This document shows positions 7,063-25,450 of a stretch of 64,000 nucleotides of DNA, piece by piece. The notes beneath the pieces were generated by a model, which searched no databases, was not told the origin of the DNA, and worked only from the letters and a program-made list of their open reading frames with translations. Location of the stretch: contig NZ_OBEL01000008.1 of NCBI RefSeq assembly GCF_900215605.1, positions 62,001-126,000 on the forward strand, in the 5' to 3' direction. The position numbers and the translations under genes were made by a program. Every line of letters starts with the position of its first letter. Positions within the stretch are counted from its first letter, which is position 1. This stretch comes from Cohaesibacter gelatinilyticus. Its GTDB lineage: Bacteria > Pseudomonadota > Alphaproteobacteria > Rhizobiales > Cohaesibacteraceae.

Positions 7063-8844
7063 CTAATCCGTCGAGACGTGGGACACATCCTTGTCGGGAG
7101 AGTAGATATCAAGAATATTCCAATGTCCCGTGGTAGGGGTGGGATTGTTGATCATGGAAACATCAATCACGGTTGGCTTGCCACTGGCTATTGCCTTTCT
7201 CAAGGTTGGCAACAATTCAGCGGCAGACGAGATACGAATACCGACCGCACCATAAGCATTGGCGATATCGGCATAGTTCGGCGTAAGCTCGGCATCTCCA
7301 TTCTTGCCATCAAACAATGTTCCATAGGTCTTGCCATAATGGGCCTTTTGCAACCCGGCAATTGTACCAAATGCATTATTGTTCATGACGAGCCAGACAA
7401 TACCCAAATCCTGTTCGACTGCCGTTGCCAGCATGGCCGGGTTCTGCCCGAATCCACCATCACCCACCAACGAAAGCACCACACGATCAGGCGCAGCAAT
7501 CTTGGCCCCAATCGCACCGGGAGGGCCAAAGCCCATCGTCGCAAAACCGCCCGGCGTCAAGATGCTGCCCGGCGTCAGAATGTCAAATTGCTGACCCACA
7601 CCATTTTTGTTCCAGCCGACATCCGTCGTTATGATGGCATCATCTGGCAAGGCGGATCGGGTATCAGACAAAATCCGCTCCGGCATCATCGGAAAGGCAT
7701 CGCTCGCTGCCATCTCTGCATTGCCAGCTTTGAATTCTTTTCGGAATGCACCAATCTTTTCTTTCAGTGTCGGTCTGTCAAAACCATTGGGAAAGAGCTT
7801 TTTGGCAACACGCAGCAGGACCCGCAAAGCTGCTTTGGCATCCGCAACAACTCCGATCTCCGTCGGATAATTCCGTCCGATTTCGGATGGCTCGATATCG
7901 ATATGAATAACCTTCGAGCCTGGAATATTGAAGGTATAACCCGGATACCAGGATGAACAGTCCGCTTCCTTGAACCGTGTTCCGATGGCCATGATGATAT
8001 CTGCATTGAGACATGACTTGTTGACGAGCTCCGTTCCCCAGAAGCCGGTCATGCCCAAAACCAACGGATGCGCATCGCTCAAGGCTCCCTTGCCCATCAA
8101 GCTATGCGCCACCGGAATTTGCATATGATCAACAAAGGCCTCCAGCTCGTCCGACGCCTCAGCCAGCAAGATACCTCCCCCTACATACAGAACCGGGTCT
8201 TTGGCGTCAGCCAGTGTCGTCAAGATGCGCTCTGCTGTCTCGTCATCAATCGATGGCTTGACCAATGACTTGGTGTGATCGCGCAGTCGATCAAATGTTG
8301 CGCTGTCTATGACCTCGCTGAATATATCCATCGGAACATTGACCAATACCGGTCCGGGCTGACCGCTTTCAGCCAGATGAAACGCCTTTTCAAGGATTTC
8401 CGCCATGAGATCGGCCCGATCCACGCGCCAGGCACGCTTCACAAAGGGTCGGTAGATCTCATATTGCGCGGCATCCGCATGCAGATTGACCTCCTGGTGG
8501 GGGTGCTTCCCATAATAATGGGTAGGAATATCCCCTGCGATGACCACCATAGGCGTACAATCAAGCGCGGCGTTGGCTACCCCGGTTGCACAATTGGTCA
8601 GACCGGGTGACAAATGAGACAGAACAACAGACGCTCGCCCGGTTACACGCGCATAAGCATCGGCAGCATGGCTGGCTATCTGCTCATGACGGACATTGAC
8701 AAAATCAATGGCGCTTTCTTCCAGGGCCGACAGCACCGCAATATTGGTATGGCCACATAGACCAAAAATATGCTTGATATCCCGCCGCTCCAGATAGTCG
8801 ACCAGATGTTCGGCAACTGTTTTTCTTGCTGGATCAATCGTCAT
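7063..8844 (-). CDS. Thiamine diphosphate-dependent enzyme, acetolactate synthase/IolD-like
   Basis: A 593-residue member of the ThDP superfamily that makes or breaks C-C bonds next to a carbonyl. The N-terminal pyrimidine domain has the conserved glutamate (VRHEQ, about residue 54). The C-terminal domain has the ThDP/Mg motif, starting GDGGFGQNPAML near residue 460 and ending VMNNNAFG. A central cofactor-like domain lies between them. It resembles acetolactate-synthase-like enzymes; I see no features that fix the substrate. It is the last gene of a three-gene unit with an acylating aldehyde dehydrogenase and a TIM-barrel protein. This recalls the ring-cleaving hydrolase IolD of inositol breakdown, but that role is inference. 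ATG 8844 is chosen with GGAGGTC upstream; GTG 8847 is possible. Confidence 0.85.
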   Translation of the reverse strand: MTIDPARKTVAEHLVDYLERRDIKHIFGLCGHTNIAVLSALEESAIDFVNVRHEQIASHAADAYARVTGRASVVLSHLSPGLTNCATGVANAALDCTPMVVIAGDIPTHYYGKHPHQEVNLHADAAQYEIYRPFVKRAWRVDRADLMAEILEKAFHLAESGQPGPVLVNVPMDIFSEVIDSATFDRLRDHTKSLVKPSIDDETAERILTTLADAKDPVLYVGGGILLAEASDELEAFVDHMQIPVAHSLMGKGALSDAHPLVLGMTGFWGTELVNKSCLNADIIMAIGTRFKEADCSSWYPGYTFNIPGSKVIHIDIEPSEIGRNYPTEIGVVADAKAALRVLLRVAKKLFPNGFDRPTLKEKIGAFRKEFKAGNAEMAASDAFPMMPERILSDTRSALPDDAIITTDVGWNKNGVGQQFDILTPGSILTPGGFATMGFGPPGAIGAKIAAPDRVVLSLVGDGGFGQNPAMLATAVEQDLGIVWLVMNNNAFGTIAGLQKAHYGKTYGTLFDGKNGDAELTPNYADIANAYGAVGIRISSAAELLPTLRKAIASGKPTVIDVSMINNPTPTTGHWNILDIYSPDKDVSHVSTD

Positions 8845-8847
8845 CAC

Positions 8848-10257
8848 TCACAAGACCTCCCCGTTATAAAACTCACCGAAAAGCTCTTCTTCCGAAGGTC
8901 TGTCTTCTGCAATTGGACGGCTGACCCAGGTATAATTCAGCATATGCTTCAGCGTGACATTCTCGTTGGTGATGTTGCCACCCCAAATTCCGCATCCCAA
9001 TGAGCTTGTCATCGGCATACCATTGGTCCAGGCACCGGCATTGGCCTTGGATTGCGGCTGTCTCACCATCATGCGGCTTACAGGTGCGACACGCGCAAGA
9101 GCATCGATATTGTCATCATTGTGGCTATAAATTCCGCAGGAATGACCCTTGCCACCCACAGCATAAATCTGGCGTACAGTCTCAAGAGCATCATCAAAGC
9201 CATCAAAGTGATACAATGCCATCACTGTCGTCAGCTTCTCTTTTGAGAATTTGTGCTCCTGCCCTATTTGTCCATGATTATAGACCATGAGAAATTTGCG
9301 ATCTTCGGGAATGGAGAAACCGGCAACATCAGCTGTTTGTTGCGGTTTGCAGGCAATGGTCGGAAAAGTTCGATTGCCCTTTTCGTCCCACATCGCCTTT
9401 TCAAGAAGCGCCTTTTCTTCTTCATTGCAAAGATACCCGCCTTCTGCTTCCAGCGCTTTTACCATGTCATCAAAGATAGACTTCTGAATGATGATATTGC
9501 CATCAGCGGAACATCCGGAACCAAAATCGGAAGTTTTTGACATGCGAGTATTGGCAGCAGCAATATCGATATCAGCGGTCTCATCAATCACAATGGATGA
9601 GTTGCCAGCCCCGACACCATAGGCCGGTCTGCCGCTTGAATATGCAGCCTGAACCATTGGTTTGCCACCGGTTGCCAGAGTCAGATCGCACACCTGCATG
9701 AGATATTGGGTCGACGGAATGGAAGGTTTGGAGATGACCTGAAACAGATCTTCCGGGGCACCGACAGCACGGCAGGCAGCGCGCATGACATCGACCATTT
9801 CAGTCGTGGTGCGTGCGGTGCGTGGATGTGGTGAGAAAATAACTGCATTGCCAGCATTGGCTGAAGATACGCCAGTGACCGGTGGTGTCATTGCAGGGTT
9901 GGTCATGGGGATCAGAGAAGCAACGACTCCAGCTGGTTTGGCATATTTAACCAGCCCCTTGGCTTCATCCACCTCGACAATACCTGTTGACGGGGTCCGC
10001 AGAACGTCCCGCAAGACCATATGGATCTTGAACCGTTTTGCAGGGCGCCCTTCTCGATCTCCAATCCCGCTTTCATCGACACCCAGTTGTGCCAGACGGG
10101 TGAATGTCTCTTCATTGCCTGCATACCAGGCAATTGCCTGACTGAGACGATCGCGTTGTTCCTGGCTATAATTCTCAACTTCAGCCATGGCTGAACGCGC
10201 CCGGGCCAATAACTGGTCAACCAGATCACGTTCCTCCGAGGTGATTTCGCGGGCCAT
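8848..10257 (-). CDS. CoA-acylating aldehyde dehydrogenase (SauS/EutE-like)
   Basis: Predicted to oxidise an aldehyde to its acyl-CoA with NAD(P)+ and CoA. The 469-residue protein is of the acylating type related to EutE, the AdhE N-terminal domain and sulfoacetaldehyde dehydrogenase SauS. The visible landmarks are the cofactor-binding segment PAGVVASLIPMTNPAMTP, the VGAGNSSIVI strand and the probable catalytic cysteine in SDFGSGCSADGN near residue 248. AAAGGA sits seven bases before the ATG. It ends three bases before the ThDP enzyme start, so the two products may act in sequence, the ThDP enzyme releasing an aldehyde and this enzyme trapping it as a CoA ester. No sulfonate genes are nearby, so SauS function is not supported by context. 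Confidence 0.85.
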   Translation of the reverse strand: MAREITSEERDLVDQLLARARSAMAEVENYSQEQRDRLSQAIAWYAGNEETFTRLAQLGVDESGIGDREGRPAKRFKIHMVLRDVLRTPSTGIVEVDEAKGLVKYAKPAGVVASLIPMTNPAMTPPVTGVSSANAGNAVIFSPHPRTARTTTEMVDVMRAACRAVGAPEDLFQVISKPSIPSTQYLMQVCDLTLATGGKPMVQAAYSSGRPAYGVGAGNSSIVIDETADIDIAAANTRMSKTSDFGSGCSADGNIIIQKSIFDDMVKALEAEGGYLCNEEEKALLEKAMWDEKGNRTFPTIACKPQQTADVAGFSIPEDRKFLMVYNHGQIGQEHKFSKEKLTTVMALYHFDGFDDALETVRQIYAVGGKGHSCGIYSHNDDNIDALARVAPVSRMMVRQPQSKANAGAWTNGMPMTSSLGCGIWGGNITNENVTLKHMLNYTWVSRPIAEDRPSEEELFGEFYNGEVL

Positions 10258-10289
10258 CAGATAAATCCTTTCAAGAGATATTGCAGCGG

Positions 10290-11111
10290 TTAGACATCAG
10301 CCGCTGGCAAAAGAGTTTGTTTGGCCGTTTCCAGACAGCGCCGCGCATGGCCTTCATAACCAAGCTTCTGTACACGCGCCAGATTTGGCAATTCGATGGA
10401 AAATGTTACCGGGGGCAAGTGCTTCAATATGGCGGAGAAATCGATACGCCCTTCTCCTGGATAGAGCCGTGCACCGCGTGCGATTTCGATCATGCCATTG
10501 TTCGAAGTGGGAATTTCCGAAGGCACGTCAGCAATATGCAGAAAGTGGAACCAATCCTTTGGCAGGCTATCAATCTCATTGAGATTCAGCCCCGAAAATT
10601 CCGAATAGATTGTGTCAATGAGGATGCCACCATTGGGGCGCCCTGCTGCGCGCACGATATCTGCTGCCGCATGCAGGGTTTTCAAGGTAGAAAATGTCGG
10701 AAATTCCAGATCGACCGTCAGTCCATAATCATAAGCGATGTCGCATAGAGCACCATATTGATCGACAATGTAGGTGCGTTCCGCTGGCTCGGACAACCAG
10801 ACAGATGTGATCATCCTGGTCGCTCCCATTTCCGCCGCAAGCGAAATCGCCACTTCATTGGCATACGGATCCATTCCTTCGACAATGCGAATGAGCTCCA
10901 GTTCCCCAACTCTGATACCGGTATTCTTCAGCGCTTCCTTGGTTGCTTGCACGAGAGAAACATCGTGAGCTTCGCAGGAAAACTCTCCCGGCACATGCAT
11001 GGGAATGAAGCGCGGACTGACAGCATCATATCCGCAGCGTGCTGCGATATAGACCAGTTCCGGCGCGGAACATCCAATCAAGGTCAGGTGTGCCAATGAA
11101 AATGACGACAT
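10290..11111 (-). CDS. TIM-barrel sugar phosphate isomerase/epimerase-family protein, possible dehydratase
   Basis: A 273-residue protein of the xylose-isomerase-like (AP endonuclease 2) TIM-barrel family. The likely metal-binding positions are visible in order: Glu in VDLEFPTF, Asp in GGILIDTIYSEF, His in FHFLHIADVP and Glu near the end in FSIELPN. This family includes IolE (inosose dehydratase), 3-dehydroshikimate dehydratases (AsbF/QuiC) and hydroxypyruvate isomerases. Because the locus also encodes a dehydroquinase and an AroE-like enzyme, a dehydroshikimate or cyclitol dehydratase is attractive, but this is inference. First gene of its unit; a structured leader and a candidate GntR operator lie upstream. 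Confidence 0.82.
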   Translation of the reverse strand: MSSFSLAHLTLIGCSAPELVYIAARCGYDAVSPRFIPMHVPGEFSCEAHDVSLVQATKEALKNTGIRVGELELIRIVEGMDPYANEVAISLAAEMGATRMITSVWLSEPAERTYIVDQYGALCDIAYDYGLTVDLEFPTFSTLKTLHAAADIVRAAGRPNGGILIDTIYSEFSGLNLNEIDSLPKDWFHFLHIADVPSEIPTSNNGMIEIARGARLYPGEGRIDFSAILKHLPPVTFSIELPNLARVQKLGYEGHARRCLETAKQTLLPAADV

Positions 11112-11120
11112 TCACGATCA

Positions 11121-11164
11121 CTCTTTCAGGTTCATGAAAGAGTCAGAAAACATCTGCTGACTCT
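11121..11164 (-). promoter_or_regulatory. Leader with two overlapping, mutually exclusive hairpins
   Basis: In the 5' leader of the TIM-barrel gene, CTCTTTCA (11121-11128) can pair with TGAAAGAG (11135-11142). In turn AGAGTCAG (11139-11146) can pair with CTGACTCT (11157-11164). The two share AGAG, so only one can form fully. On the transcript the start-proximal hairpin would hide the AAAGAG/GAGTGA stretch that serves as ribosome site. This is a possible attenuator or translation switch. No known riboswitch class was recognised. Confidence 0.4.
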
Positions 11165-11186
11165 AAAAATATATCAAAATAACAAT

Positions 11187-11199
11187 AATATCTGATATT
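11187..11199. promoter_or_regulatory. Candidate GntR operator, copy A
   Basis: AATATCTGATATT, a perfect 13-bp palindrome about 75 bases upstream of the TIM-barrel gene. The same palindrome occurs before dctP (19310-19322), and near-copies lie between aroQ and the divergent GntR gene (20956-20987). FCD-type GntR proteins usually bind short palindromes of this kind. Confidence 0.6.
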
Positions 11200-11444
11200 T
11201 TTATAATCAACATATTTTATCTAAAAAATCATAATATCTTCAATCAAGCGCGATAAAACCGGACGACCCTGTAGATCCTTATCCCGGCTCCAACTGGTAT
11301 TGTTCTTTGAAGTCAGCCTGTTAGACATCTGCCAATTCGCATGACAGATCACACAATCCGATTGAATTGACCGTCGACAAAATTCAGGACACTGGGGGGA
11401 AAACTCAAAAACAAAGGCATGGAACCACATGCAGACAACAAAAA

Positions 11445-11470
11445 GGGCGAAGGGATTTCTCCCCTCGCCC
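11445..11470 (-). terminator. Rho-independent terminator of the TRAP/Gfo operon
   Basis: GGGCGAAGGGA pairs with TCCCCTCGCCC with one mismatch and a four-base loop, and on the minus strand a run of five T follows. It sits about 50 bases after the stop of the last gene (11522), so it closes the long dctP-to-Gfo unit before the TIM-barrel unit begins. The remainder of the 410-base gap holds the leader and operator already listed. Confidence 0.8.
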
Positions 11471-11521
11471 ATCGGCAAATTTCAAATTCCAGCTCTATGA
11501 CTAATTCATGTATGGGATTTA

Positions 11522-12709
11522 TTACAAGCTTACCCAGCTTCCTCCGGTTTCGTGAGATTCAACAGCAGCATCAATGAACCGAACACCCTTGCTTCCATCC
11601 TGAACAAGAGGAAGATCCAACCAGGATTGTGGAGGTGTGAGGCCATCGCGTCTTGCAGCCACCGCCATGGCAAACTCCGTATACAGATTGCCCCATGCCT
11701 CAATGAGCCCTTCAGGGAAACCCCGTCCTGTTCTGACCAGCCGCTGAACCTTTGGCAGAACGCCATGACCATGACCTCGGGAGATCACCTGATCGGGCCG
11801 CCCATAGATATTGACCTTCAGATATTCGGAATGCTCCAGATCCCATTCAACACCACCTTTGCTTCCAAAAATCCGGACCCGCAATCCTCCACGATTTCCG
11901 GACGCAATACGAGTGGCCATTAACGTGCCCGGCACATCACCTTCATATCTGGTCATCATGAAAACCGTATCTTCCAACTGCTTGGGCGCACCACAAACAT
12001 GCATTTCAGACCGTAGATGCGTCATATCCAAGCCAGAAACAAAGCTCGCCAGATGCGCAGCATGGGTACCAATATCACCAGTACAACTGGTCTTGCCCGA
12101 TTTGGCAGGGTCCAATCGCCATTTCACATGCTCGGCCTTCATCACATCTTCGGGTATCATCCAATCCTGCATGAATTCGACATGAATCTGGCAAACATCG
12201 CCAATCTCCCCACTCAGCACAATTTCTCTTGCCTGCCTGACCATGGCAAAAGCCGACATCACGTAGGAAACACCGAAGACCAAACCCGTTTGACTTGTTT
12301 CTTGCTCCAACTCCTGTGCCTGGGCGCAATCATTGGTCAAAGGCTTGTCACACAAAACATCAATATCATTTTTCAGGAAAGCCTTCGCAGCATCAAAATG
12401 AACATGGTTGGGTGTTGTAATCATCACAGCATCGACACCATCTGGTCTTCGTGACTCCACCCGAGCCATTTCTTCAAACGAGCCATAACACCGATCATTT
12501 GGCAGAAACCATTCTGCTCCCCTGGCACGAGCTTTGGAACGGCTTGAAGACAAAGCCCCGGCGGCGATATCCCAATGATTGCTCATTCGGGCTGCCATTG
12601 CCTGAGTTGCAGCGATACGCCCCCCTCCGACAATGCCCAACCGCAAGCGCCGGGACAATTGCGGAAAATCATCTTGAAAAGAGAAGTCGACGGGTAGAAT
12701 TTTGGTCAT
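11522..12709 (-). CDS. Gfo/Idh/MocA-family oxidoreductase, copy 1
   Basis: Predicted NAD(P)-dependent dehydrogenase of the glucose-fructose oxidoreductase/inositol dehydrogenase family, 395 residues. The Rossmann motif LGIVGGGRIA lies about 25 residues in. The segments TTPNHVHFDAAKAFL, VLCDKPLTND (the usual EKP motif reads DKP) and CTGDIGTHAAH follow, the last holding the catalytic Asp and His region. The start at ATG 12709 is chosen because GGAG precedes it. It is the final gene of the long operon. It differs clearly from the two other Gfo-family genes in this locus, so each probably acts on a different intermediate or stereocentre. Confidence 0.85.
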   Translation of the reverse strand: MTKILPVDFSFQDDFPQLSRRLRLGIVGGGRIAATQAMAARMSNHWDIAAGALSSSRSKARARGAEWFLPNDRCYGSFEEMARVESRRPDGVDAVMITTPNHVHFDAAKAFLKNDIDVLCDKPLTNDCAQAQELEQETSQTGLVFGVSYVMSAFAMVRQAREIVLSGEIGDVCQIHVEFMQDWMIPEDVMKAEHVKWRLDPAKSGKTSCTGDIGTHAAHLASFVSGLDMTHLRSEMHVCGAPKQLEDTVFMMTRYEGDVPGTLMATRIASGNRGGLRVRIFGSKGGVEWDLEHSEYLKVNIYGRPDQVISRGHGHGVLPKVQRLVRTGRGFPEGLIEAWGNLYTEFAMAVAARRDGLTPPQSWLDLPLVQDGSKGVRFIDAAVESHETGGSWVSL

Positions 12710-12775
12710 GGGAAACTCCAAAGATTATTCAAGCCTGAAAATTGACGAACGGCTGAGGCTGTCCAGGGCGTAAAC

Positions 12776-13423
12776 TCACACAGCTTTTTCGGGCAGAATT
12801 TCAAAAGCCATAAAAATACCGGGTGTGATTGTTTCAAACTGATGCCAGGGATAATTGCCAAACTCATCATACATCGGCCGGTGGGTTGTCCCCGGGGCCA
12901 TCAGCTCCTCCATATAGAGTGTGCTGACATCCCTCTCTCGGCATTGCTGCATCTTCCCAAACCCGACAATCTGGGTGTGGACTTCGCGAAAACCCGGCAC
13001 TTCGCAAAACGGATGGTCTTTGTGCAAACCCACTTTCAATGGTACCGATCCGGCGTGATACATACTCAGCCGTATTTGTCCCAAATCCTCTTTGGGTGAC
13101 ATATAATGAGCAACACCTTTGAGGCGCTCCTCGCCCCGCACGTCATAGGCGGACGGCCACACCTTCCTAACCTTCTCAAACAATTGCTGTTCATCAGGAT
13201 AATCGGCAAAACGCTCTATGATCACCGCATGATCCAGATCTTCAACAACCACATTTGTGACAACAACTGATTGTAAGGACTGAAGTGTCTGATCCCTGAT
13301 ATGCATCGGTTTTTCAGACAGATTGACCAGAATTGATTTTTCACCGACCTCATAGTCAGTTTCATTCGTAATATAGCGAACGGAGAAAAAAGGGTCGGCA
13401 AATGCCAGGACTTTTATTGTCAT
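12776..13423 (-). CDS. Unrecognised cupin-like protein
   Basis: A 215-residue soluble protein that I cannot assign to a named family. Its second half looks like a cupin barrel: the conserved-looking histidines and acids fall in HKDHPFCEVPGFREVHTQ, GTTHRPMYDEFGNYPWHQFE and TITPGIFMAFEI, a pattern that could bind one metal ion. No signal peptide or membrane segment is seen. It lies between two Gfo/Idh/MocA dehydrogenase genes with 21 and 66 base gaps, so it is almost certainly part of the pathway. By analogy with IolB or other cupin isomerases it could be an isomerase or dioxygenase; this is a guess. AAAGGA lies eight bases before the ATG. Confidence 0.7.
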   Translation of the reverse strand: MTIKVLAFADPFFSVRYITNETDYEVGEKSILVNLSEKPMHIRDQTLQSLQSVVVTNVVVEDLDHAVIIERFADYPDEQQLFEKVRKVWPSAYDVRGEERLKGVAHYMSPKEDLGQIRLSMYHAGSVPLKVGLHKDHPFCEVPGFREVHTQIVGFGKMQQCRERDVSTLYMEELMAPGTTHRPMYDEFGNYPWHQFETITPGIFMAFEILPEKAV

Positions 13424-13444
13424 CAAACAAATCCTTTGAAGGGC

Positions 13445-14608: not shown

Positions 14609-14653
14609 AATTACCTTCGTTACATCCGGGATCACGCCGCCCGGATGTCGTTT

Positions 14654-15466
14654 CTATTCTTCTGGTTGATATTCAGGTAGGAATTTGGGAGGCATGGGGC
14701 CTTTGTTGCGCCCGCCCTGCTGCATCTGCTCCCAGGCGTGGGCCAGAATTCCGACAGAGCGGGAAAGACAAAAAACACCGCGCGCCAAAGGTGGAGGGAA
14801 CCCCAGTTCACAGAAGATAACCGCTGTGGCTCCATCGATATTCATCGCCAGCGGACGCCCTCCCCTGTCACGCGCCAACTGATCCTGAATGGTTTCGCCA
14901 ATATCGGCAAATTGCCCGGTGACAAATCCATCTTTGGCTGCACTACGCACCAAAGCCATCAAACGCGGCGCTCTGGGATCGACGGGTTTATGAAACCGAT
15001 GGCCAAATCCGCTGACAATTTTGCCGCGCTCTTCTCGCCATCTGGCCAACCCCAGATTGACGGCGTCTTCACGTGTCTTGCCATTCTCGATATGCTCAGA
15101 GACCCAATAATAGAGCTCTGCACATTGCTCGCCAGCACCACCATGCACATCACCAAGCATATTCAGGGATGTCGCCATGACATTGTTAAGCCCAAGCCCG
15201 CAAGTGGCAGCCATTCGTGAAGCAGCTATCGAAGGGGCTTGTGGTCCATGGTCCACCGCCGAAACCAAGGCGGCTTCCAGCAATTTTGCCTGGCCTTCCG
15301 ACGGCATCTCTCCGATGACCATGAACCAGATCATTTGGGGGAATGACACTGTCCCGATCAGCTCTTCAATAGGTTTGCCTCGAAAAGAAATTCTGCCAGG
15401 CGACATATCGATGATCGAGGTTCGCCACCAATGTTCGATGGCTTGTTTATCCTGTCTGTCTTGCAT
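14654..15466 (-). CDS. Citryl-CoA lyase / citrate synthase-family protein
   Basis: A short 270-residue member of the citrate synthase fold, which condenses or cleaves acyl-CoA and a 2-oxo acid. The three catalytic positions appear to be kept: His in VHGGAGEQ, His in SGFGHRFHK, and Asp in NIDGATAV, matching the His-His-Asp triad of the family. It is much shorter than respiratory citrate synthase (about 430), as are annotated citryl-CoA lyases. Its presence in a catabolic operon suggests cleavage of a citryl-CoA-like intermediate into acetyl-CoA and a 2-oxo acid, which would suit an upstream acylating dehydrogenase; that link is inference. ATG 15466 is preferred over GTG 15478 because AAGGTGA lies eight bases before it. 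Confidence 0.8.
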   Translation of the reverse strand: MQDRQDKQAIEHWWRTSIIDMSPGRISFRGKPIEELIGTVSFPQMIWFMVIGEMPSEGQAKLLEAALVSAVDHGPQAPSIAASRMAATCGLGLNNVMATSLNMLGDVHGGAGEQCAELYYWVSEHIENGKTREDAVNLGLARWREERGKIVSGFGHRFHKPVDPRAPRLMALVRSAAKDGFVTGQFADIGETIQDQLARDRGGRPLAMNIDGATAVIFCELGFPPPLARGVFCLSRSVGILAHAWEQMQQGGRNKGPMPPKFLPEYQPEE

Positions 15467-15492
15467 GGCGACAATCACCTTTTTGGTTGCAT

Positions 15493-16374
15493 CTATGATA
15501 CGGAATTATCAAACACTCGCAGACATGGCTCATATTGTGCAGGATGGCCTGTCAGAATTTCGAAGGACCGCATGGCCTGACCAATTGCCATGCCCACACC
15601 GGACATGGTGGCGCAGCCAGCCCTTTGCGCATCTATCAGAAACTGGGTTTGTTGCGGAAAATAGACAATATCTGACGCCCAAATCCTGTCATGCCAATGT
15701 CTGGACGGCACAACACTTCCCGGATAGGAAGACATCCCAACCGGTGTTGCATTGATGATCCCGTCATGGTTTTCACAAAGCGCTTCATCCAGATCGCTAT
15801 ATATCCGAACCACAAGATCCGGATGACATTGTCTCAACCTGGTTTTGAGCGAAATCAGATTTTCCGCCTTGCTATCAAAAATATTCAGGGTACGAACGCC
15901 CAGATCCACAAGCGCGAAGGCCACTGCCGAACCTGCCCCTCCTGCTCCCACAAGCAGAACGCTCTCCCGCTCAACCTCACCAAACTGAGCCTGAAAAGCA
16001 CTTTTGAACCCCAGCCCATCACTATTGTGACCAATTCGACGTCCTTCAGAAAATCGAACAATATTGACAGAGCCGATCTGACGAGCTTCTTCAGCCATGT
16101 CATCAATATGCTTGATGACCTCGGTTTTGAACGGGTGAGTCACATTCACGCCGATATATCCCTGCTCTTCCAGATTTGTCAGACAATGGGCAAGGTCATC
16201 CCTGGTGTGCGAGATCAGGGAAAGATCCAGCAAATCATATCGATAATCCAGCTGATGGGCTCTTCCCATGACTTCATGCATATCAGGGCTGCGTGAGAGC
16301 TGAATATCACGGCCAATCAGGGCCGCTTTCAAGTGGCCTGATTGGCGAACCGAATGGTTCGATGTCATAGACAT
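15493..16374 (-). CDS. Shikimate dehydrogenase-like protein (catabolic AroE paralogue)
   Basis: NAD(P)-dependent dehydrogenase of the AroE fold, about 293 residues. The substrate motif reads LSRSPDMHE, not the biosynthetic HSxSPxxHN. The catalytic lysine is in NVTHPFK (about residue 83) and the aspartate in GHNSDG (about 119). The nucleotide motif is VGAGGAGSAV. The LSRSPxMHE and YRYDLLDL features resemble paralogous AroE-like enzymes of catabolic clusters, not the housekeeping enzyme. It probably interconverts a 3-hydroxy and 3-oxo cyclohexene or cyclohexane carboxylate such as quinate or shikimate. The start overlaps or just follows the DctM stop; 16395 and 16368 are alternatives. Confidence 0.83.
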   Translation of the reverse strand: MSMTSNHSVRQSGHLKAALIGRDIQLSRSPDMHEVMGRAHQLDYRYDLLDLSLISHTRDDLAHCLTNLEEQGYIGVNVTHPFKTEVIKHIDDMAEEARQIGSVNIVRFSEGRRIGHNSDGLGFKSAFQAQFGEVERESVLLVGAGGAGSAVAFALVDLGVRTLNIFDSKAENLISLKTRLRQCHPDLVVRIYSDLDEALCENHDGIINATPVGMSSYPGSVVPSRHWHDRIWASDIVYFPQQTQFLIDAQRAGCATMSGVGMAIGQAMRSFEILTGHPAQYEPCLRVFDNSVS

Positions 16375-16384
16375 GCCCGTCAGC

Positions 16385-17680
16385 CTATCCCGCATATCCG
16401 AACAGTCGTGGTAGCCAAAGCACCAGATCCGGGATCAGAATCAAGGTGGCCAATGCCCCGATCAAAACCAACGTGAAGATCCAGGACTCACGGATGATCT
16501 CACCGAGGGGAATATCCGTCACGGCATTGATCACAAACAGCAGAATCCCATATGGCGGCGTAATCAGTCCGATCATGCAATTGACGACCGCAATGACACC
16601 GAAATGCACGAGATCAATACCAAGCTCACGACAACTGGGAATGAACAATGGCAAAATGACGAGAATGATTGTGGTTGCATCCAGAATGGCCCCGAGCAAG
16701 AGCAACAGGATATTGACGCCAAGCAGAAAAATCAGAGGATGCACATCCAACCCGACCAGGCTGCTGGCAAGCTGATTGGGAATATTCTCCGACGCGACGA
16801 TATAATTGAGGATCAAGGCGCCGCCAATGACCAATCCAACAGCCGCCGAGGACCGCGCCGAGCTGACCAGAATCTCGTAAAGACGATGCAGCTTCAACGC
16901 GCGATAGAAAAATGCAGCCAATATCAGCGCATAAGCAGCGGCAACAGCTGCGGCTTCCGTCGGCGTCGTAACACCACCATATATCCCGTAGAGCAAAATG
17001 GCAGGCATCAGCAGTGCCGGAAAGGCCTCGACCGTCAATGCAGGCAATTCACGAACCGGAACAGGATCTTCCAGCGGAAAGTTACGCACCTTCGCCAGAT
17101 AGCTGTTCAAAGCCATCAAGACACATCCCATGACAAGACCGGGAACAATACCGCCGAGGAACAGATAGCCAATGGACTGATCCGAAATCAAAGCATAAAG
17201 CACCATGGGAATGGAAGGTGGTATGATGGGTCCGATCGTGGCGGACGCCGCGGTTATGGCCGCTGCATATCCGGGAGGATAGCGTCCCTCCTTGCGCATC
17301 ATATCAATGATGATCTTGCCAATACCCGCAGCATCTGCGACGGCCGAGCCGGACATGCCTGAAAAAATCAGAGAAGCAACGACATTGACATGTCCAAGTC
17401 CGCCACGAAATCGGCCGACACATGCGACACAGAAATTGAGCAATCGATCTGAAATCGTACCGGCATTCATTATGTTGGCGGCCACAATGAAAAGCGGGAC
17501 CGCAAGCAGAACAAAACTTTGATAGACGCCAAACAGAATCTGTTCTCCTGCCAGGGCGATATCCTGCCCGGCAATTGCCAAATAGACTATTGACGCAAGG
17601 ATGATGGAATAAGCAACCGGTGTACCAATTCCGGCAAGCAGGAGCATGGTGAAAAGGCAGGCCGCAAATTGAATACTCAT
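16385..17680 (-). CDS. dctM: TRAP transporter large permease (DctM type)
   Basis: Large membrane subunit of a tripartite ATP-independent periplasmic transporter, which imports an organic acid by Na+ or proton symport. The 431 residues form about twelve hydrophobic segments, with typical DctM stretches such as GMSGSAVADAAGIGKIIIDMM and ASATIGPIIPPSIPMVLYA. Length is normal for the family. The ATG overlaps the DctQ stop by four bases. Genes for the AroE-like and citryl-CoA-lyase-like enzymes follow at once, tying this carrier to the pathway substrate. Confidence 0.95.
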   Translation of the reverse strand: MSIQFAACLFTMLLLAGIGTPVAYSIILASIVYLAIAGQDIALAGEQILFGVYQSFVLLAVPLFIVAANIMNAGTISDRLLNFCVACVGRFRGGLGHVNVVASLIFSGMSGSAVADAAGIGKIIIDMMRKEGRYPPGYAAAITAASATIGPIIPPSIPMVLYALISDQSIGYLFLGGIVPGLVMGCVLMALNSYLAKVRNFPLEDPVPVRELPALTVEAFPALLMPAILLYGIYGGVTTPTEAAAVAAAYALILAAFFYRALKLHRLYEILVSSARSSAAVGLVIGGALILNYIVASENIPNQLASSLVGLDVHPLIFLLGVNILLLLLGAILDATTIILVILPLFIPSCRELGIDLVHFGVIAVVNCMIGLITPPYGILLFVINAVTDIPLGEIIRESWIFTLVLIGALATLILIPDLVLWLPRLFGYAG

Positions 17681-18180
17681 GTGTCACCCACCTCATGTTT
17701 GTGCCAGTCTTCCGGTGCACCCTTTCGCAGGATCAGAACAAACCGATAGGCATAGACCGCGATTGTCGCGACCAAAAACACGGCATAAATCGAGAAGATT
17801 GTGCGCATGGGAATGCGAAGCGTCGCACTTTTCTTGATTTTCAAAAAATCGATATAGTCCCATGTCGGAGCCAGAGAATAAGCCAGACCGACAACAATGG
17901 CAGCAGCGCCACAAAGGGCAAAGATCTGTCGTGTTCGCTTGCCGACCGCATGATAGAGCACATCGAATGTAACATGTTCATCATGGCGAACGACAAACGC
18001 ATTGCCCCAGAATATCATCCATAGCCAAAGCGTCAGACACAGCTCCAGTGTCCAGCCAAACGGCTCGGCCAAAACATAGCGTGAAAAAATCTGAAGCAGG
18101 AAGGTGAGGAACATAGCGGCCAACATTGCCGCCGCTATGCTCTCCGCTCCTTTGAGGAGCCAATCCTTGAATCTGTTCAT
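17677..18180 (-). CDS. dctQ: TRAP transporter small permease (DctQ type)
   Basis: Small membrane subunit of the TRAP carrier, 167 residues, four hydrophobic segments. The family pattern is visible in ESIAAAMLAAMFLTFLLQIF, then WTLELCLTLWLWMIFWGNAFVVRHDEHVTFD, the conserved acidic/histidine loop after the second helix, quoted here in two parts by position (about residues 42-72). It lies between dctP and dctM with a 27-base gap and a four-base overlap respectively. Confidence 0.92.
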   Translation of the reverse strand: MNRFKDWLLKGAESIAAAMLAAMFLTFLLQIFSRYVLAEPFGWTLELCLTLWLWMIFWGNAFVVRHDEHVTFDVLYHAVGKRTRQIFALCGAAAIVVGLAYSLAPTWDYIDFLKIKKSATLRIPMRTIFSIYAVFLVATIAVYAYRFVLILRKGAPEDWHKHEVGDT

Positions 18181-18207
18181 TGGTCGGCTCCTCCCCCCAC
18201 CTAAGTC

Positions 18208-19203
18208 TTAAAGAGCGTTGATTTTTTCCAGAAGTCCTTTCGGCCAGCTTTTGGCAAACTCGGAATCCACATACATACCTTGTACGCGTTTACGGAAGGA
18301 TGCCACATCCGGCTCATAAACCTTCAGCCCTTTTTCCTTGAGGAACGAAACAAGGGATTCTTCGAGCGCAAGCTGCTTCTGGCGACCAAATTCCGCTGCC
18401 TCATCTGCAGCAGCCTGTGTCTTGGCCTGCTGCTCTGGTGTCATGCTATCCCAAACCTTTTTGGAAATCGCAATATAATTGAGATCCACCAGATGCGAGG
18501 TCAGAACGATCTGCTTGGTTACTTCATAGAATTTCTTGTCAACAACCGTTGGCAAGGGATTGTCCTGTCCATCGACAGCACCAGTTTGCAAACCGGTATA
18601 AACTTCGGAGAAAGCCATTGGCGTTGGATTGGCACCCAGTGCCTTTCCAAGGAACTGCCATGCTGCGGTCCCTGGCATGCGCAAATTGACACCGGCCAGA
18701 TCTTCAGGCTTCATGACCTTGTCATCCGTGCGCAAGTTTACCTGCCGGCGACCAAGATACATGACGGTCAAAAGTTTGAGACCGAGCTCATCTTCCACTT
18801 TTTTCTTAAACGGGTCCATCAATGGGTCATTGAAAACCGCCACCTGATGCGCAGCATCACGATGAACATATCCGGCTGCAAAAATCGAGAATTCCGGGAA
18901 GAATTCAGCAAGCTCCTGCGCCGAAGCAATGGCCATCTCCAAATTGCCCCGGGCAATGGCTTCCAATTCGGTGCCTTGCTTGAACAATGAGGAATTCCAA
19001 TGAGGTTCAAAGTTAGCAAAGTCAGACACACCCGGACCGAATTTTTCGATCAGAGCGATTGCCCGGGTGCCGGTTGCTGAACCCGATGAAGCCAGACGAA
19101 GCTTGATCTTGTCTGCTGCAATTGCACTTGTCGCCAGACTTCCGACAAGCGCAACCGTTGCCAGTGCGGACATCATTTTGCGACGTGTAAACTTGATTGT
19201 CAT
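18208..19203 (-). CDS. dctP: TRAP transporter substrate-binding protein (DctP type)
   Basis: Periplasmic binding protein of the TRAP system, 331 residues. The N terminus carries an export signal ending in ATSAIA before ADKIKLRLA; it contains TRRKMM, so Tat export is conceivable though Sec is more usual. Conserved features are the LRMPGTAAW segment with the arginine that holds substrate carboxylates, and GLQTGAVDGQDNP. The arginine supports a carboxylate ligand. It is first in the long operon, with GGGAGG seven bases before ATG and a candidate GntR operator about 107 bases upstream. Confidence 0.94.
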   Translation of the reverse strand: MTIKFTRRKMMSALATVALVGSLATSAIAADKIKLRLASSGSATGTRAIALIEKFGPGVSDFANFEPHWNSSLFKQGTELEAIARGNLEMAIASAQELAEFFPEFSIFAAGYVHRDAAHQVAVFNDPLMDPFKKKVEDELGLKLLTVMYLGRRQVNLRTDDKVMKPEDLAGVNLRMPGTAAWQFLGKALGANPTPMAFSEVYTGLQTGAVDGQDNPLPTVVDKKFYEVTKQIVLTSHLVDLNYIAISKKVWDSMTPEQQAKTQAAADEAAEFGRQKQLALEESLVSFLKEKGLKVYEPDVASFRKRVQGMYVDSEFAKSWPKGLLEKINAL

Positions 19204-19309
19204 ATATTTTCCTCCCTTGGATGTCAGATTTCAGTTTTGCTCCACCCAACTGAAATTACGATTTTCTCTTGATAGCACAGTGAATTTAAAATTCATAGAT
19301 ATTTTAAAA

Positions 19310-19322
19310 AATATCTGATATT
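19310..19322. promoter_or_regulatory. Candidate GntR operator, copy B
   Basis: AATATCTGATATT, identical to copy A, in the 124-base gap between the Gfo-family gene (stop at 19328) and dctP. It overlaps a second palindrome (arms AGATATTTT and AAAATATCT, about 19297-19316). Placement upstream of the dctP unit suits repression by the divergently encoded GntR protein. Confidence 0.6.
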
Positions 19323-19327
19323 TATCG

Positions 19328-20380
19328 TTATGTCTGTTTTTCATGCAGATAGACAGGCCTGTTCTGCAACGCTGACAGCTTGATGGATTCAACAGCACGC
19401 AAGGATTCAACGGCATCTTGCGCAGAGACGATTGGCTCTGCTTCCTTGCGGATCACGTCAATGAAATGCTTCATCTGCAATAACAATGGATCCCTCTTGG
19501 GTTCACTGACAGATTTGGCATGGATCGGCTCTTTCCAATGGCCGTGCTCACCGTGAGACCAGACTTTCATGTCCGGAATCGACAGGGATGCTCTGGTGCC
19601 CCCAATCATGTAACAGCTCTGAGATGTTGCCGGATATTCCGGGTTTTCACTGGCAGTCAGCTCCCAGCTCCAGGGGGCGACAATGGTGTCTGAAAGATTG
19701 AATGAACAAAGCGCGCCCGATTTGAAAGCAATCATGGCAACAGCGGTATCTTCCGTTTCGAAACCACGCTCCTTGTTGGAGGAGATGGCCTGTACCATTT
19801 CGATTTCTCCACAAAGATATCGAAGCAGATCAATGTCATGTATCAAATTGACCATGATCGGACCACCACCATCCTTGCGACGCCATTCCTGTTCAAAATA
19901 ATCTTCAGGCTTATAGAGCCAAAAGGATCCATGAACTGAGGTAACCCGGCCAAGTCCCCCGCTTTTGATCATCTCTTTTGCCCTGCATATCCAGGGATTA
20001 TGTCGCCTGTGGTGGCCAACCAGAACAGGAACATCATTGTCTGCAGCCGCTTTTACCAGCTCCTCTGCAGCAGAACAGGATGTCGCGATCGGCTTTTCAA
20101 CCAGGATCGGAATCCCGGCATTCACACACTCTACGCCATTTACCACATGAACCTGATTGGGCGTCGCCAGCACGGCTCCATCGGGCGAGCTTGCCAGGAT
20201 CATATCGCCGATTGACGGATACCAGGGAATATGTCTGGACTTTGCAAAATCTTGCCCCGCCTCTGACGGGTCAACGATACTGTCGATGATGATATCGTCA
20301 TCAAGCTTGCGCATCACATCAAAGTGCCGCCGACCAATCAGCCCCGCCCCGACAAGGGCGATCTTTTTCTTGGCTCTCAT
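19328..20380 (-). CDS. Gfo/Idh/MocA-family oxidoreductase, copy 3
   Basis: Predicted NAD(P)-dependent dehydrogenase, 350 residues, closest in outline to inositol dehydrogenase-like proteins. The N terminus is [14 protein letters not shown] (Rossmann motif). [20 protein letters not shown] leads to VEKPIA (EKP motif), then [11 protein letters not shown]; the catalytic region is [19 protein letters not shown] with the Asp and His expected of the family. It overlaps aroQ by four bases (ATGA), so both come from one message. A quinate- or cyclitol-type oxidation feeding the dehydroquinase is a reasonable guess. Confidence 0.87.
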
Positions 20381-20814
20381 AGCAGAACACTCGCCATGCG
20401 GCGCAGTGCCAGCTCATAACCATCCGTTCCAAATCCAGCCATCACACCATCTGCACGCAACGAGACAAAGGATTTGTGACGAAATGCCTGACGCTTGTGA
20501 ATGTTGGAAACATGCACTTCAAGCACTGTTCCAATGAAGGCGTTCAACGCATCCAGTATGGCAACCGATGTATGAGAATATCCACCCGGATTGATGATGA
20601 TACCATGGGCATAGGTTCGCGCCTCATGGATCAGCTCAATCATTGCCCCCTCATAATTGGTTTGTTCAAAGCGTACAGTCAGACCCAAATCATCCGCCAA
20701 AACCCGGCAGCGCTGTTCCACGTCATCCAGGGTTACTTCGCCATAGACATCTTTTTGCCGCTCTCCGAGCAAATTCAGATTTGGTCCGTTCAAAAATAAA
20801 ATTCTTTTTTCCAT
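20377..20814 (-). CDS. aroQ: Type II 3-dehydroquinate dehydratase, catabolic paralogue
   Basis: Converts 3-dehydroquinate to 3-dehydroshikimate. The 145-residue protein keeps all residues known for type II enzymes, even at standard numbering: Asn12, Arg19, Tyr24, Asn75, His81, Asp88, Glu99, His101, Arg108 and Arg112. The active-site lid differs from the usual REPxxY: here it reads RQKDVY. Context (TRAP carrier, dehydrogenases, GntR regulator) indicates catabolism of quinate-like acids, not aromatic amino acid synthesis. The start at 20814 has AAGGA eight bases upstream; a longer frame from 20847 adds residues the family lacks. Confidence 0.92.
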
Positions 20815-20955
20815 CGAGACAATCCTTGTTTCAGCCAATCTACACAATGAACCCAGCTTCGTCGGTTTGATCGCCTAGGCTGAACAGATCACCGGTTCGA
20901 GAGCATTGCTGCATCTTCATCACAGAGATTATAAGTCTTGTCCGATTTCGTCAAT

Positions 20956-20987
20956 AATATATGATATTTTTATTATTATCTGATTTT
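20956..20987. promoter_or_regulatory. Candidate GntR operators, copies C and D, in the divergent promoter region
   Basis: AATATATGATATT (20956-20968) matches the palindrome of copies A and B at 12 of 13 bases, and ATTATCTGATTTT (20975-20987) at 11 of 13. They lie between aroQ (minus) and the GntR gene (plus), so one protein bound here could control both the pathway and itself. The surrounding 20848-21060 is AT-rich and holds nothing else. Confidence 0.55.
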
Positions 20988-21060
20988 TACTCCTGTTTAT
21001 AAAATTGCAAAAATTTATTATTTTGCTGACATTTTTCATTTGCTCCGCTATTTTCGACCA

Positions 21061-21723
21061 ATGCAAAACACAGCCCATACAGTAGGTCTCAGCACCTATG
21101 CCACCATTCGCGAAGACATCATCTTCGGTCGTCTTGAGCCTGATTTGAAGCTCAAGCTCGATCAGATGAAAAACCGCTACAAGGCAAGTATCTCCACCGT
21201 CAGAGAAAGTTTGAACCGTCTTGCAAGCGAGGGCTTTGTTGTGGCTGAGGAGCAGCGCGGCTTCTTTGTGGCGCCCGTATCGCGAGGTGATTTGGAAGAA
21301 ATTGCAGCGCTTCGTGTATTGCTGGAATGCAGCGCCCTGGAGCAATCCATCGACAATGGCGATACCGAATGGGAAGGCAATGTTGCAGCCGCTCATCACA
21401 AGCTGCATCGTATGGAACAAAAAATGCTTTCCGGCGATGAAACGCAAAAAGAGCTATGGAAACGCTACGACTGGGAATTCCATCAAGCTCTTATTTTCGC
21501 CTGCGGCTCAAAGAATCTCTTGTCATTGCATCGCACTGTTTTCGACAAATATCTTCGGTATCAGATGCAGGTTCTGACCTTTCGCGGCGCACCTGCGGCC
21601 GAAGAACATCGCCTGCTTTTTGAAGCTGCACTCGACCGCGACAAGAAAACGGCGGTCAAAATACTCAAACAGCATGTCATCAGCTGCCTCAACCAAACAT
21701 ATAGCGAACTCATCACCGGCTAA
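21061..21723 (+). CDS. GntR-family (FCD) transcriptional regulator of the adjacent catabolic locus
   Basis: DNA-binding regulator of 220 residues. The N-terminal winged helix is in YATIREDIIFGRLEPDLKLK and STVRESLNRLASEGFVV. The C-terminal FCD ligand domain has the histidines expected to bind a metal or effector, in WEFHQAL, EEHRLLFEAAL and LKQHVIS. It is divergent from the aroQ unit across a region with palindromic sites that recur before the other units, so it very likely represses the pathway and is released by an intermediate. ATG 21061 is chosen over TTG 21040; the ribosome site is weak. Confidence 0.88.
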   Translation: MQNTAHTVGLSTYATIREDIIFGRLEPDLKLKLDQMKNRYKASISTVRESLNRLASEGFVVAEEQRGFFVAPVSRGDLEEIAALRVLLECSALEQSIDNGDTEWEGNVAAAHHKLHRMEQKMLSGDETQKELWKRYDWEFHQALIFACGSKNLLSLHRTVFDKYLRYQMQVLTFRGAPAAEEHRLLFEAALDRDKKTAVKILKQHVISCLNQTYSELITG

Positions 21724-22859: not shown

Positions 22860-22899
22860 TTGCAAAAATCAGCATTTCTCTATATGTTAGCGCTAACAT
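22860..22899 (+). promoter_or_regulatory. edd promoter with overlapping LacI-family operator
   Basis: A -35 like TTGCAA (22860-22865), a 17-base spacer and a -10 like TATGTT (22883-22888) lie about 35-60 bases upstream of edd. The perfect palindrome ATGTTAGCGCTAACAT (22884-22899) covers the -10 element, with the central CG typical of LacI-family operators. Binding here would block RNA polymerase, and the site may also serve the divergent repressor gene. Confidence 0.75.
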
Positions 22900-22925
22900 T
22901 TTCCCACATGCTGGGGTACAGGACC

Positions 22926-24740: not shown

Positions 24741-24753
24741 AGAAGTCTGACCC

Positions 24754-25407
24754 ATGACAATGAATTCTTCGCTTGACCAAAGTAATGAGCGCTTGAAACA
24801 TATTTGTTCTGTTGCTCCTGTTATTCCGGTTCTGGTAGTTGACGATGTGGCCCACGCGGTCCCGCTGGCCAAGGCTCTGGTGGCGGGCGGTCTGCCGGTA
24901 CTGGAAGTGACCTTGCGCACTCCTGTAGCCCTTGATGTCATCAAGGCCATGTCGGACGTTGAAGGCGGCATTGTCGGAGCTGGGACAGTTCTTGGCCAGA
25001 AAGATGTTCTGGCCGCAAAAGATGCCGGGGCGCAATTTGCGGTTTCCCCCGGTGCAACCCCGGATTTGCTGACCGCTTGCGAAGCAGCAGATCTACCCCT
25101 ACTTGCAGGAGCATCAACAGCATCCGAAGCCATGGCTCTTCTTGAGCGTGGCTATCGTTATGCCAAGTTCTTTCCTGCAGAAGCTGCGGGTGGAGCGGCG
25201 ATGATTCAAGCCCTGAATGGCCCTCTCCCGCAGCTTCATTTTTGTCCGACCGGGGGGGTGAGCCCGGACAATATCGGCTCCTATCTATCGCTTCCCAATG
25301 TTGTTTGTGCAGGTGGGTCCTGGGTGGCTCCGAAAAGTCTTGTCAAAGAAGGCAAATGGGATGACATTGAAGAACTGGCCCGGCAAGCAGCTCAACTACC
25401 GCGCTGA
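24754..25407 (+). CDS. eda: KDPG aldolase
   Basis: Splits 2-keto-3-deoxy-6-phosphogluconate into pyruvate and glyceraldehyde 3-phosphate. The 217 residues carry the family features: [20 protein letters not shown], the catalytic glutamate in [18 protein letters not shown], and the Schiff-base lysine in [12 protein letters not shown], followed by [14 protein letters not shown], the phosphate-binding turn. It follows edd by 13 bases. Confidence 0.96.
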
Positions 25408-25450
25408 ATTGATTTCTGTTCCCAGGATGGCAACAACATGAGGACCGAAC

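Follow-up and report, generated by a model that had tools for sequence, protein, structure and literature searches.

A conserved, apparently co-controlled locus of Cohaesibacter gelatinilyticus that may serve the non-aromatic catabolism of quinate/shikimate-type ring acids

In this study, we analysed a 64,000-nucleotide stretch of the Cohaesibacter gelatinilyticus genome (positions 62,001 to 126,000 of contig NZ_OBEL01000008.1; referred to as the window), in which positions 7063-21723 hold a conserved, apparently co-controlled catabolic locus. According to the open reading frame list and family scans, it consists of thirteen minus-strand genes and a divergent gene for a GntR-type regulator. 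A first-pass annotation of this DNA had described twelve enzyme and transport genes plus the regulator as one locus. Pfam and NCBIfam scans fit its family labels and every gene that it named is present, but the enzyme and transport genes number thirteen and they are arranged as three units (20847-19328, 19203-11522 and 11111-7063, as delimited by the gene gaps). Genes within a unit are separated by -11 to 54 bp, while the two breaks between units measure 124 bp (19204-19327) and 410 bp (11112-11521). A hairpin resembling an intrinsic terminator (11445-11470, minus strand; 11 pairs, 8 of them GC, with a T tail) closes the middle unit inside the 410-bp break; the whole scan for such hairpins gave 16 matches against a shuffle mean of 14.7, which is hardly above the shuffles.

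The unit next to the regulator gene carries a type II 3-dehydroquinate dehydratase (DHQase; 20377-20847, 156 residues) and a Gfo/Idh/MocA dehydrogenase, C (19328-20380, 350 residues). The middle unit begins with a tripartite ATP-independent periplasmic (TRAP) carrier, made up of the solute-binding protein DctP (18208-19203), the small permease DctQ (17677-18180, PF04290) and the large permease DctM (16385-17680, assigned by the family scan). These are followed by a shikimate/quinate dehydrogenase of the AroE family (15493-16395, 300 residues), a citryl-coenzyme A (CoA)-lyase-like protein of the citrate synthase fold (14654-15478, 274 residues), Gfo/Idh/MocA dehydrogenase B (13445-14635, 396 residues), an orphan protein (12776-13426, 216 residues) and Gfo/Idh/MocA dehydrogenase A (11522-12721, 399 residues); all three Gfo/Idh/MocA proteins match PF01408. 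The last unit encodes a xylose-isomerase-like triosephosphate isomerase (TIM) barrel (10290-11111, 273 residues, PF01261), which we propose to be a dehydratase, a CoA-acylating aldehyde dehydrogenase (8848-10257, 469 residues) and a thiamine diphosphate (ThDP)-dependent enzyme (7063-8847, 594 residues).

An operator-like dyad, AATATCNGATATT, precedes each of the three units and recurs in relatives. In the form AATATCTGATATT, without mismatch, it lies at 11187-11199, before the unit of TIM barrel, acylating dehydrogenase and ThDP enzyme, and at 19310-19322, before the unit that runs from DctP to dehydrogenase A; in the form AATATATGATATT, with one mismatch, it lies at 20956-20968, between gntR and the unit of DHQase and dehydrogenase C. 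With up to two mismatches the window contains seven matches against a shuffle mean of 1.8, and none of 100 shuffles reached seven, although the dyad was derived by comparing the three intergenic regions and the window count alone is not an independent test. Among related loci (up to 83, which are not mutually independent), the dyad core with at most one mismatch was present upstream of the TIM barrel gene in 40 of 71 cases, upstream of dctP in 14 of 27 and upstream of gntR in 11 of 25, where shuffling the same segments gives expected counts of 0.4, 0.4 and 0.5, respectively. Random stretches of the same loci contain it in 1-3% of cases. Upstream of inner genes, in segments that are largely coding, it was seen in 0 of 77 cases for the acylating dehydrogenase, 0 of 31 for dehydrogenase B and 1 of 55 for the lyase. 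The regulator gene (21040-21723, plus strand) encodes a protein whose closest model is CsiR (119.3 bits, cut-off 218). We infer that this protein binds at the dyad and that the three units form one GntR-controlled regulon.

GTDB genomes were searched with an alignment of four ThDP enzyme sequences, which yielded at least 577 stretches with a relative, of which the best 80 were taken. These 80 lean to close relatives and are mostly from Rhodobacterales, in largely marine genera; 67 of them have at least 7.5 kb of upstream sequence. All 67 carry the acylating dehydrogenase, 65 the TIM barrel, 58 DctM and 56 any Gfo/Idh enzyme, while the orphan is found in 30, AroE in 28, an HpaI-type aldolase in 9 and DHQase in 8. 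The ThDP enzyme is rare when samples are drawn evenly: it was present in 8 of 385 Alphaproteobacteria and in 5 of 398 Pseudomonadota (the enzyme of the window being counted in both). Two of the eight alphaproteobacterial matches are distant, and the lyase was found in six of the seven near relatives with surroundings, at least three of these seven being already among the 80. Distant relatives of the ThDP enzyme (505-509 bits, two genomes) are not accompanied by any of the other genes within the sequence sampled around them, which marks the limit of the association. The earlier expectation that these genes would co-occur elsewhere was borne out, as the set of ThDP enzyme, acylating dehydrogenase, TIM barrel and lyase recurs across Alphaproteobacteria and beyond.

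The lyase matches the NCBIfam citryl-CoA lyase model NF004864 with 429.1 bits (cut-off 261), and its best PDB match is the citryl-CoA lyase 6HXP. Residues H112, H160, D215, R169 and R240 fit the citrate synthase active-site pattern (two His, Asp and Arg), and all four lyase motif patterns are found in 54 of the 57 cluster members, the other three fitting in part. With calling thresholds of 80 and 150 bits, 51 of the 67 relatives have a lyase of the citrate synthase fold, 12 have an HMGL-type protein, none has both and four have neither; for all 80, the respective numbers are 53, 16, 0 and 11. One of the four stretches with neither (L077) may end before the lyase, the others being L069, L070 and L093. 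A representative of the second type is HMGL-like by Pfam and scores 295.2 bits (cut-off 246) with the NCBIfam model for 3-hydroxy-3-methylglutaryl (HMG)-CoA lyase. The motifs GLGGCP and RDGLQ are kept in all 16 members of the HMGL cluster, of which 15 belong to the 80 loci and one to Streptomyces (L017), with L095 standing outside the cluster.

Citryl-CoA lyase and HMG-CoA lyase have unrelated folds, and what they have in common is the retro-Claisen cleavage of a tertiary 3-hydroxyacyl-CoA. The occupation of one slot by two unrelated lyases therefore suggests that a single reaction of this kind takes place here, and no other observation says as much about the chemistry of the locus. The likeness to citryl-CoA lyase modules that work with CaiB/BaiF CoA-transferases extends to the NF004864 family and the active-site pattern, but here the CoA ester is proposed to come from the acylating aldehyde dehydrogenase. 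Enzymes of the DRE-TIM group, HMG-CoA lyase and homocitrate synthase, likewise make or break a tertiary 3-hydroxyacyl-CoA and take the place of the citrate synthase-fold lyase in 16 of the 80 loci, although their fold is unrelated and the locus in the window has no such gene.

Relatives also suggest where the CoA ester may come from. A CoA-transferase gene adjoins the lyase in six of eight plasmid-borne lyase relatives inspected, which makes CoA esters the probable substrates of the lyase; of the other two, one (L026) has a CoA-transferase about 6 kb away and one (L023) has a short CoA-transferase piece 1.6 kb away on the opposite strand. Azoarcus KH32C has the order 4-hydroxyphenylpyruvate dioxygenase (HPPD)-like gene, TIM barrel, CoA-transferase, lyase, ThDP enzyme, shikimate dehydrogenase and type I DHQase. 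Streptomyces NBC_01450 and Nonomuraea combine a CoA-transferase, the lyase, an ordinary aldehyde dehydrogenase, a ThDP enzyme (50% identical) and an amino-acid-type ATP-binding cassette (ABC) carrier, with AroE also in the Streptomyces NBC_01450 set. These three relatives have the CoA-transferase and lack the acylating dehydrogenase, whereas no CoA-transferase is among the genes of the window locus; the conversion of aldehyde to acyl-CoA thus seems to be made in one step or in two. The aldehyde dehydrogenase in the window is nearest to acylating types (SauS/AdhE-like; SauS model NF047625, 429.6 bits, cut-off 600; catalytic Cys249 by motif), and it could supply the CoA ester. A sulfoacetaldehyde pathway for the ThDP enzyme and this dehydrogenase was rejected, each protein scoring under its curated cut-off (for the ThDP enzyme as Xsc, NF005713, 301.8 against 620). 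Citryl-CoA-lyase-like genes were also seen, with varied carriers, on plasmids of Ruegeria, Azospirillum, Agrobacterium, Bradyrhizobium, Diaphorobacter, Methylobacterium and Roseibium.

The ThDP enzyme contains all three thiamine pyrophosphate domains and is proposed to be an IolD-like ring-opening hydrolase. It has the motif GHTN (within FGLCGHTN; H33 and N35) and the cofactor glutamate E55, and GHTN is present in 82 of the 84 proteins of its cluster. GHxN is common to this enzyme and the two true IolD proteins of the genome (GHGN) and does not occur in two aligned acetolactate-synthase-like paralogues. With the IolD model TIGR04377 it scores 243 bits (cut-off 715), third-best in the genome after the two true IolD proteins. 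The locus resembles the iol pathway (IolG, IolE, IolD) in Gfo/Idh oxidation, TIM-barrel dehydration, ThDP-dependent hydrolysis of a cyclic 1,2-diketone and the GHxN motif; it differs in that AroE, DHQase, the acylating dehydrogenase and the lyase replace the kinase/aldolase end and in that a carboxylated ring is proposed. We presume that H33 corresponds to H28 of cyclohexane-1,2-dione hydrolase; a fragment search around His33 returned five other enzymes, none with a histidine at that place. To our knowledge, no citryl-CoA-type lyase has been described alongside cyclohexane-1,2-dione hydrolase. One source (PMC12247030) describes the latter as carrying out ThDP-dependent C-C cleavage of cyclohexane-1,2-dione. 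The ThDP enzyme of the window is homologous to it (2PGN, 171 bits) and would perform the same type of cleavage, but similarity is low and the substrate of cyclohexane-1,2-dione hydrolase has no carboxyl or hydroxyl groups.

In the TIM barrel, the putative metal ligands E136, D166, H192 and E240 are conserved together with three arginines. Its structural model (mean predicted local distance difference test score, pLDDT, of 95) has 2G0W, IolI (1I60) and QuiC (5HMQ) as best folds, with sugar epimerases and IolE lower among the matches. We take 2G0W to be Lmo2234, the Listeria dehydroshikimate dehydratase QuiC2, an assignment that a literature search did not confirm. Most relatives also carry a QuiC-like fusion of TIM barrel and HPPD-like domains: it is present in 60 of the 67 and in 63 of the 80 (for example, L062:4850-6766, with 492 bits against a cut-off of 1200), and it is split into two genes in Azoarcus.

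Both enzymes of the quinate/shikimate type are second copies. The AroE-family protein matches NF009201 (306.3 bits, cut-off 235), and its best solved relative is the quinate/shikimate dehydrogenase 3JYO; the DHQase matches NF003806 (204.1 bits, cut-off 171). Elsewhere the genome has one further type II DHQase and one further AroE, presumably the biosynthetic pair, which makes the copies at the locus spare ones. Among the relatives, the DHQase belongs to either of two unrelated types: 10 of the 80 loci carry type II, and type I is found in Azoarcus and in a Desulfofustis locus (L103), the latter as a 110-residue match at a contig edge.

Non-aromatic ring opening is the reading that fits these data best. 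Sequence shows the gene families, their co-occurrence, the alternative lyases of the relatives, the common operator-like sites and the lack of a recognised protocatechuate dioxygenase; the substrate, each of the reactions and the choice of the hydroxyl that leaves are inferred from established mechanisms. That a GntR-controlled regulon here serves to degrade quinate/shikimate-type ring acids (cyclohexane rings with hydroxyl and carboxyl groups on C1) independently of oxygen and without an aromatic intermediate has in our estimate a chance falling just short of even. C1 of quinate bears the tertiary alcohol and the carboxyl group and is flanked by two CH2 groups. The TRAP carrier would take up the ring acid, and AroE and/or a Gfo/Idh enzyme would oxidise quinate or shikimate to 3-dehydroquinate or 3-dehydroshikimate. 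DHQase would interconvert these two, shikimate thus joining by hydration of 3-dehydroshikimate. The TIM barrel would then remove the C5 hydroxyl of 3-dehydroquinate to give 1-hydroxy-3,4-dioxocyclohexane-1-carboxylate; the same type of elimination is catalysed by IolE with inosose and by dehydroshikimate dehydratase with 3-dehydroshikimate. The ThDP enzyme would hydrolyse the C3-C4 bond as IolD does. In IolD, the old ketone becomes the aldehyde, and the new ketone, beside the CH2, becomes the acid. With this regiochemistry, C3 would become an aldehyde and C4 a carboxylate, yielding homocitrate semialdehyde with its aldehyde two bonds from the tertiary alcohol, where acylation gives homocitryl-CoA. 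The acylating dehydrogenase would make this homocitryl-CoA, and the citryl-CoA-lyase-like enzyme would split it into acetyl-CoA and 2-oxoglutarate (C7 = C2 + C5). In a variant in which the C5 hydroxyl is retained, the lyase product would be 4-hydroxy-2-oxoglutarate. As a whole, this "homocitryl-CoA pathway", converting quinate and shikimate to acetyl-CoA and 2-oxoglutarate in the presence or absence of oxygen via a carboxylated cyclohexane-1,2-dione, ThDP-dependent hydrolysis and retro-Claisen cleavage by either of two unrelated lyases, is put forward more tentatively: it is possible, yet somewhat doubtful. We found no description of such a route or of its genes in the literature searched, which did not include most subscription journals.

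Several observations weigh against non-aromatic ring opening as drawn here. First, 36 of the 67 relatives have neither AroE nor DHQase, so entry would there proceed via the Gfo/Idh enzymes or from another acid, and entry from quinate or shikimate is not universal. Second, the scheme leaves three Gfo/Idh enzymes and the orphan without a step. Third, the top-scoring curated matches of the ThDP enzyme are acetolactate synthases (TIGR00118, 413.5 bits, cut-off 538.35). Fourth, a query search of the genome of the window, run without a positive control, did not find the QuiC-like fusion, so the dehydration step may be missing or may be done by the single TIM barrel. Fifth, DctP is 69% identical over 304 aligned residues to its nearest solved relative, 4PF6, whose ligand may be 3-deoxy-D-manno-oct-2-ulosonic acid (KDO). 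Sixth, an HpaI-type aldolase in 9 of the 80 loci favours the 4-hydroxy-2-oxoglutarate variant in some of them. The argument from lyase exchange is also affected. Streptomyces L017, which is outside the 80, has a lyase of the citrate synthase fold and an HMGL-type gene about 12 kb away, the latter adjoining another CoA-transferase. On a tree of the ThDP enzyme (quick search, 86 rows), the lyase label needs two changes, with or without L017, because Azoarcus KH32C, with a lyase of the citrate synthase fold, falls inside the HMGL clade. By the approximately unbiased (AU) test, a tree with one HMGL clade is not rejected (p 0.43), so one exchange may suffice and the claim of at least two lyase exchanges was withdrawn. 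The scheme of the first-pass annotation (a ring acid is taken up, oxidised and dehydrated, the ThDP enzyme opens it, and an acyl-CoA and a lyase step follow with no aromatic intermediate) is partly supported. Wide co-occurrence, the common dyad, two lyase families in one slot and the lack of a recognised protocatechuate dioxygenase (see below) speak for it and the tests run did not contradict it; the relatives with neither AroE nor DHQase limit it, and its substrate and products remain conjectural.

The alternatives differ in which of these points they accommodate. One dispenses with dehydration: a Gfo/Idh enzyme would make the 3,4-diketone, the ThDP enzyme would open it, the lyase would release acetyl-CoA and 4-hydroxy-2-oxoglutarate, and an aldolase would split the latter into pyruvate and glyoxylate. 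It would give a role to the HpaI-type aldolase gene, which adjoins the ThDP gene where it occurs, to the Gfo/Idh genes, found in 59 of the 80 relatives, and to the 2-keto-3-deoxy-6-phosphogluconate/2-keto-4-hydroxyglutarate (KDPG/KHG) aldolase gene near the locus (24754-25407, within an Entner-Doudoroff set). We consider it unlikely, as it leaves the TIM barrel, a fold relative of dehydratases and epimerases, and the QuiC-like gene of most relatives without a dehydration to perform, and 71 of the 80 stretches have no HpaI gene.

Unlikely as well, in our view, is that the substrate is KDO or an algal or plant 3-deoxy-2-ulosonic acid, or a mycosporine/gadusol-type ring, with quinate a mere analogue. 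The presumed ligand of 4PF6 points in this direction, and so does the prevalence of largely marine Rhodobacterales among the 80, with so many relatives lacking AroE and DHQase. According to a review (PMC5812351), the TRAP ligands that Vetting et al. identified included lipopolysaccharide components. The other 33 proteins of the DctP cluster that were compared include 26 at 58-78% identity to 4PF6, one (L087) at 45% and six at 27-31%. On chemical reasoning, the pyranose form of KDO and quinate share the ring part C(OH)(COOH)-CH2-CHOH-CHOH; by this resemblance KDO, if it is the 4PF6 ligand, may mark either an analogue or the true substrate. However, two unrelated types of DHQase and AroE would have no evident role on KDO, and KDO could be a ligand from the expression host.

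Ordinary conversion of quinate and shikimate to protocatechuate, with the TIM barrel as dehydroshikimate dehydratase and the ThDP enzyme and lyase serving otherwise, appears quite improbable. The locus does resemble the qui/qsu systems in its AroE-type dehydrogenase, its DHQase (the two being usual partners) and a TIM barrel of the dehydroshikimate dehydratase fold, with QuiC among its fold neighbours and QuiC-like genes in most relatives. It differs in that no protocatechuate dioxygenase was recognised in the genome, although unrecognised kinds are possible, and in that ThDP, acyl-CoA and lyase steps replace aromatisation. The genome has one PF00775 protein, of 208 residues, which scores under both cut-offs (PcaH, 99.5 against 296.4; PcaG, 78.9 against 126.25), so there is no PcaGH pair. 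Its three LigB-family proteins comprise two HpaD and one DOPA-dioxygenase-like protein, and LigA had no match in the genome, in a search whose LigA control rang nowhere. Furthermore, the TIM barrel scores 26.2 bits with the QuiC model (cut-off 1200) and lies in an operon-like unit with the ThDP and acylating dehydrogenase genes. Two Desulfofustis loci (L103 and L107) have the ThDP enzyme, the dehydrogenase and the HMGL-type lyase, with no TIM barrel within their short stretches. Desulfofustis is an anaerobe that reduces sulfate, and it could therefore hardly use a dioxygenase route.

A variant catabolism of an uncommon, uncharged cyclitol, with AroE and DHQase as passengers, would account for the inositol-type set of Gfo/Idh, TIM barrel and ThDP enzymes and for the GHxN motif common with IolD, but it is very improbable because two true IolD genes lie elsewhere in the genome, an uncharged cyclitol gives no tertiary hydroxy-acid CoA ester for lyases of the citryl-CoA or HMG-CoA type, and carboxylates are the usual ligands of DctP-type carriers.

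Quinate and shikimate abound in plants, and their textbook route via protocatechuate needs oxygen for ring opening. If non-aromatic ring opening takes place as proposed, these acids would be broken down by hydrolysis and through acyl-CoA, with no need for oxygen and no loss of carbon ahead of the tricarboxylic acid cycle, and this would explain why such clusters occur in marine Rhodobacterales and in sulfate reducers, Desulfofustis among them. Such a route would assign genes to the anaerobic fermentation of hydroaromatic acids, and could supply them for bacteria described as hydroaromatic specialists, e.g. Propionivibrio limicola. It would also correct the automatic labels "acetolactate synthase", "citryl-CoA lyase" and "sulfoacetaldehyde dehydrogenase" in these genomes.

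For the orphan protein, neither Pfam nor NCBIfam gave a match at an E-value of 0.001. Its structural model (mean pLDDT 81, low in parts of residues 131-200) has cupin-type matches at a template modelling (TM) score of about 0.3, which is weak, so that the label "cupin-like" is plausible. Residues H135, H138, E148, H150, H182 and H195 are invariant in 17 aligned sequences. A search of 19 further genomes of the family did not find it, so at least the orphan gene is accessory. As a guide to related loci the orphan was rejected, its matches being few and incomplete: they were found in 5 of 397 genomes of the order (its own and four weak ones) and in 24 plasmid records, all below 60% identity. Alignment ruled out a hypothetical protein of Aminobacter pUSP3 as a member; it was excluded, as were two plasmid rows. 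On plasmids of Thalassospira marina and Shinella (L015 and L016), distant kin of the orphan lie near another ThDP enzyme, a histidinol-dehydrogenase-like gene, glucose-methanol-choline (GMC) oxidoreductases and a sugar ABC carrier; these genes may form another undescribed cluster of the cyclitol type. Plasmid pUSP3 of Aminobacter MSH1 (L018) carries a cluster with two ThDP enzymes, Gfo/Idh, a TIM barrel, an aldehyde dehydrogenase and a cupin-domain protein.

Next to the locus, a LacI regulator gene (21739-22746) precedes the Entner-Doudoroff set (22860-27591), which comprises a dehydratase, the KDPG/KHG aldolase, glucose-6-phosphate dehydrogenase and a 6-phosphogluconolactonase-type protein. 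Farther away on the same contig, at 28-48 kb (approximately 14-34 kb before the window), there is a homoprotocatechuate meta-cleavage set (two HpaD, HpaE, HpaH and HpaI), and near it lie a second full-length IolD gene and the gene for the lone 208-residue intradiol-type dioxygenase.

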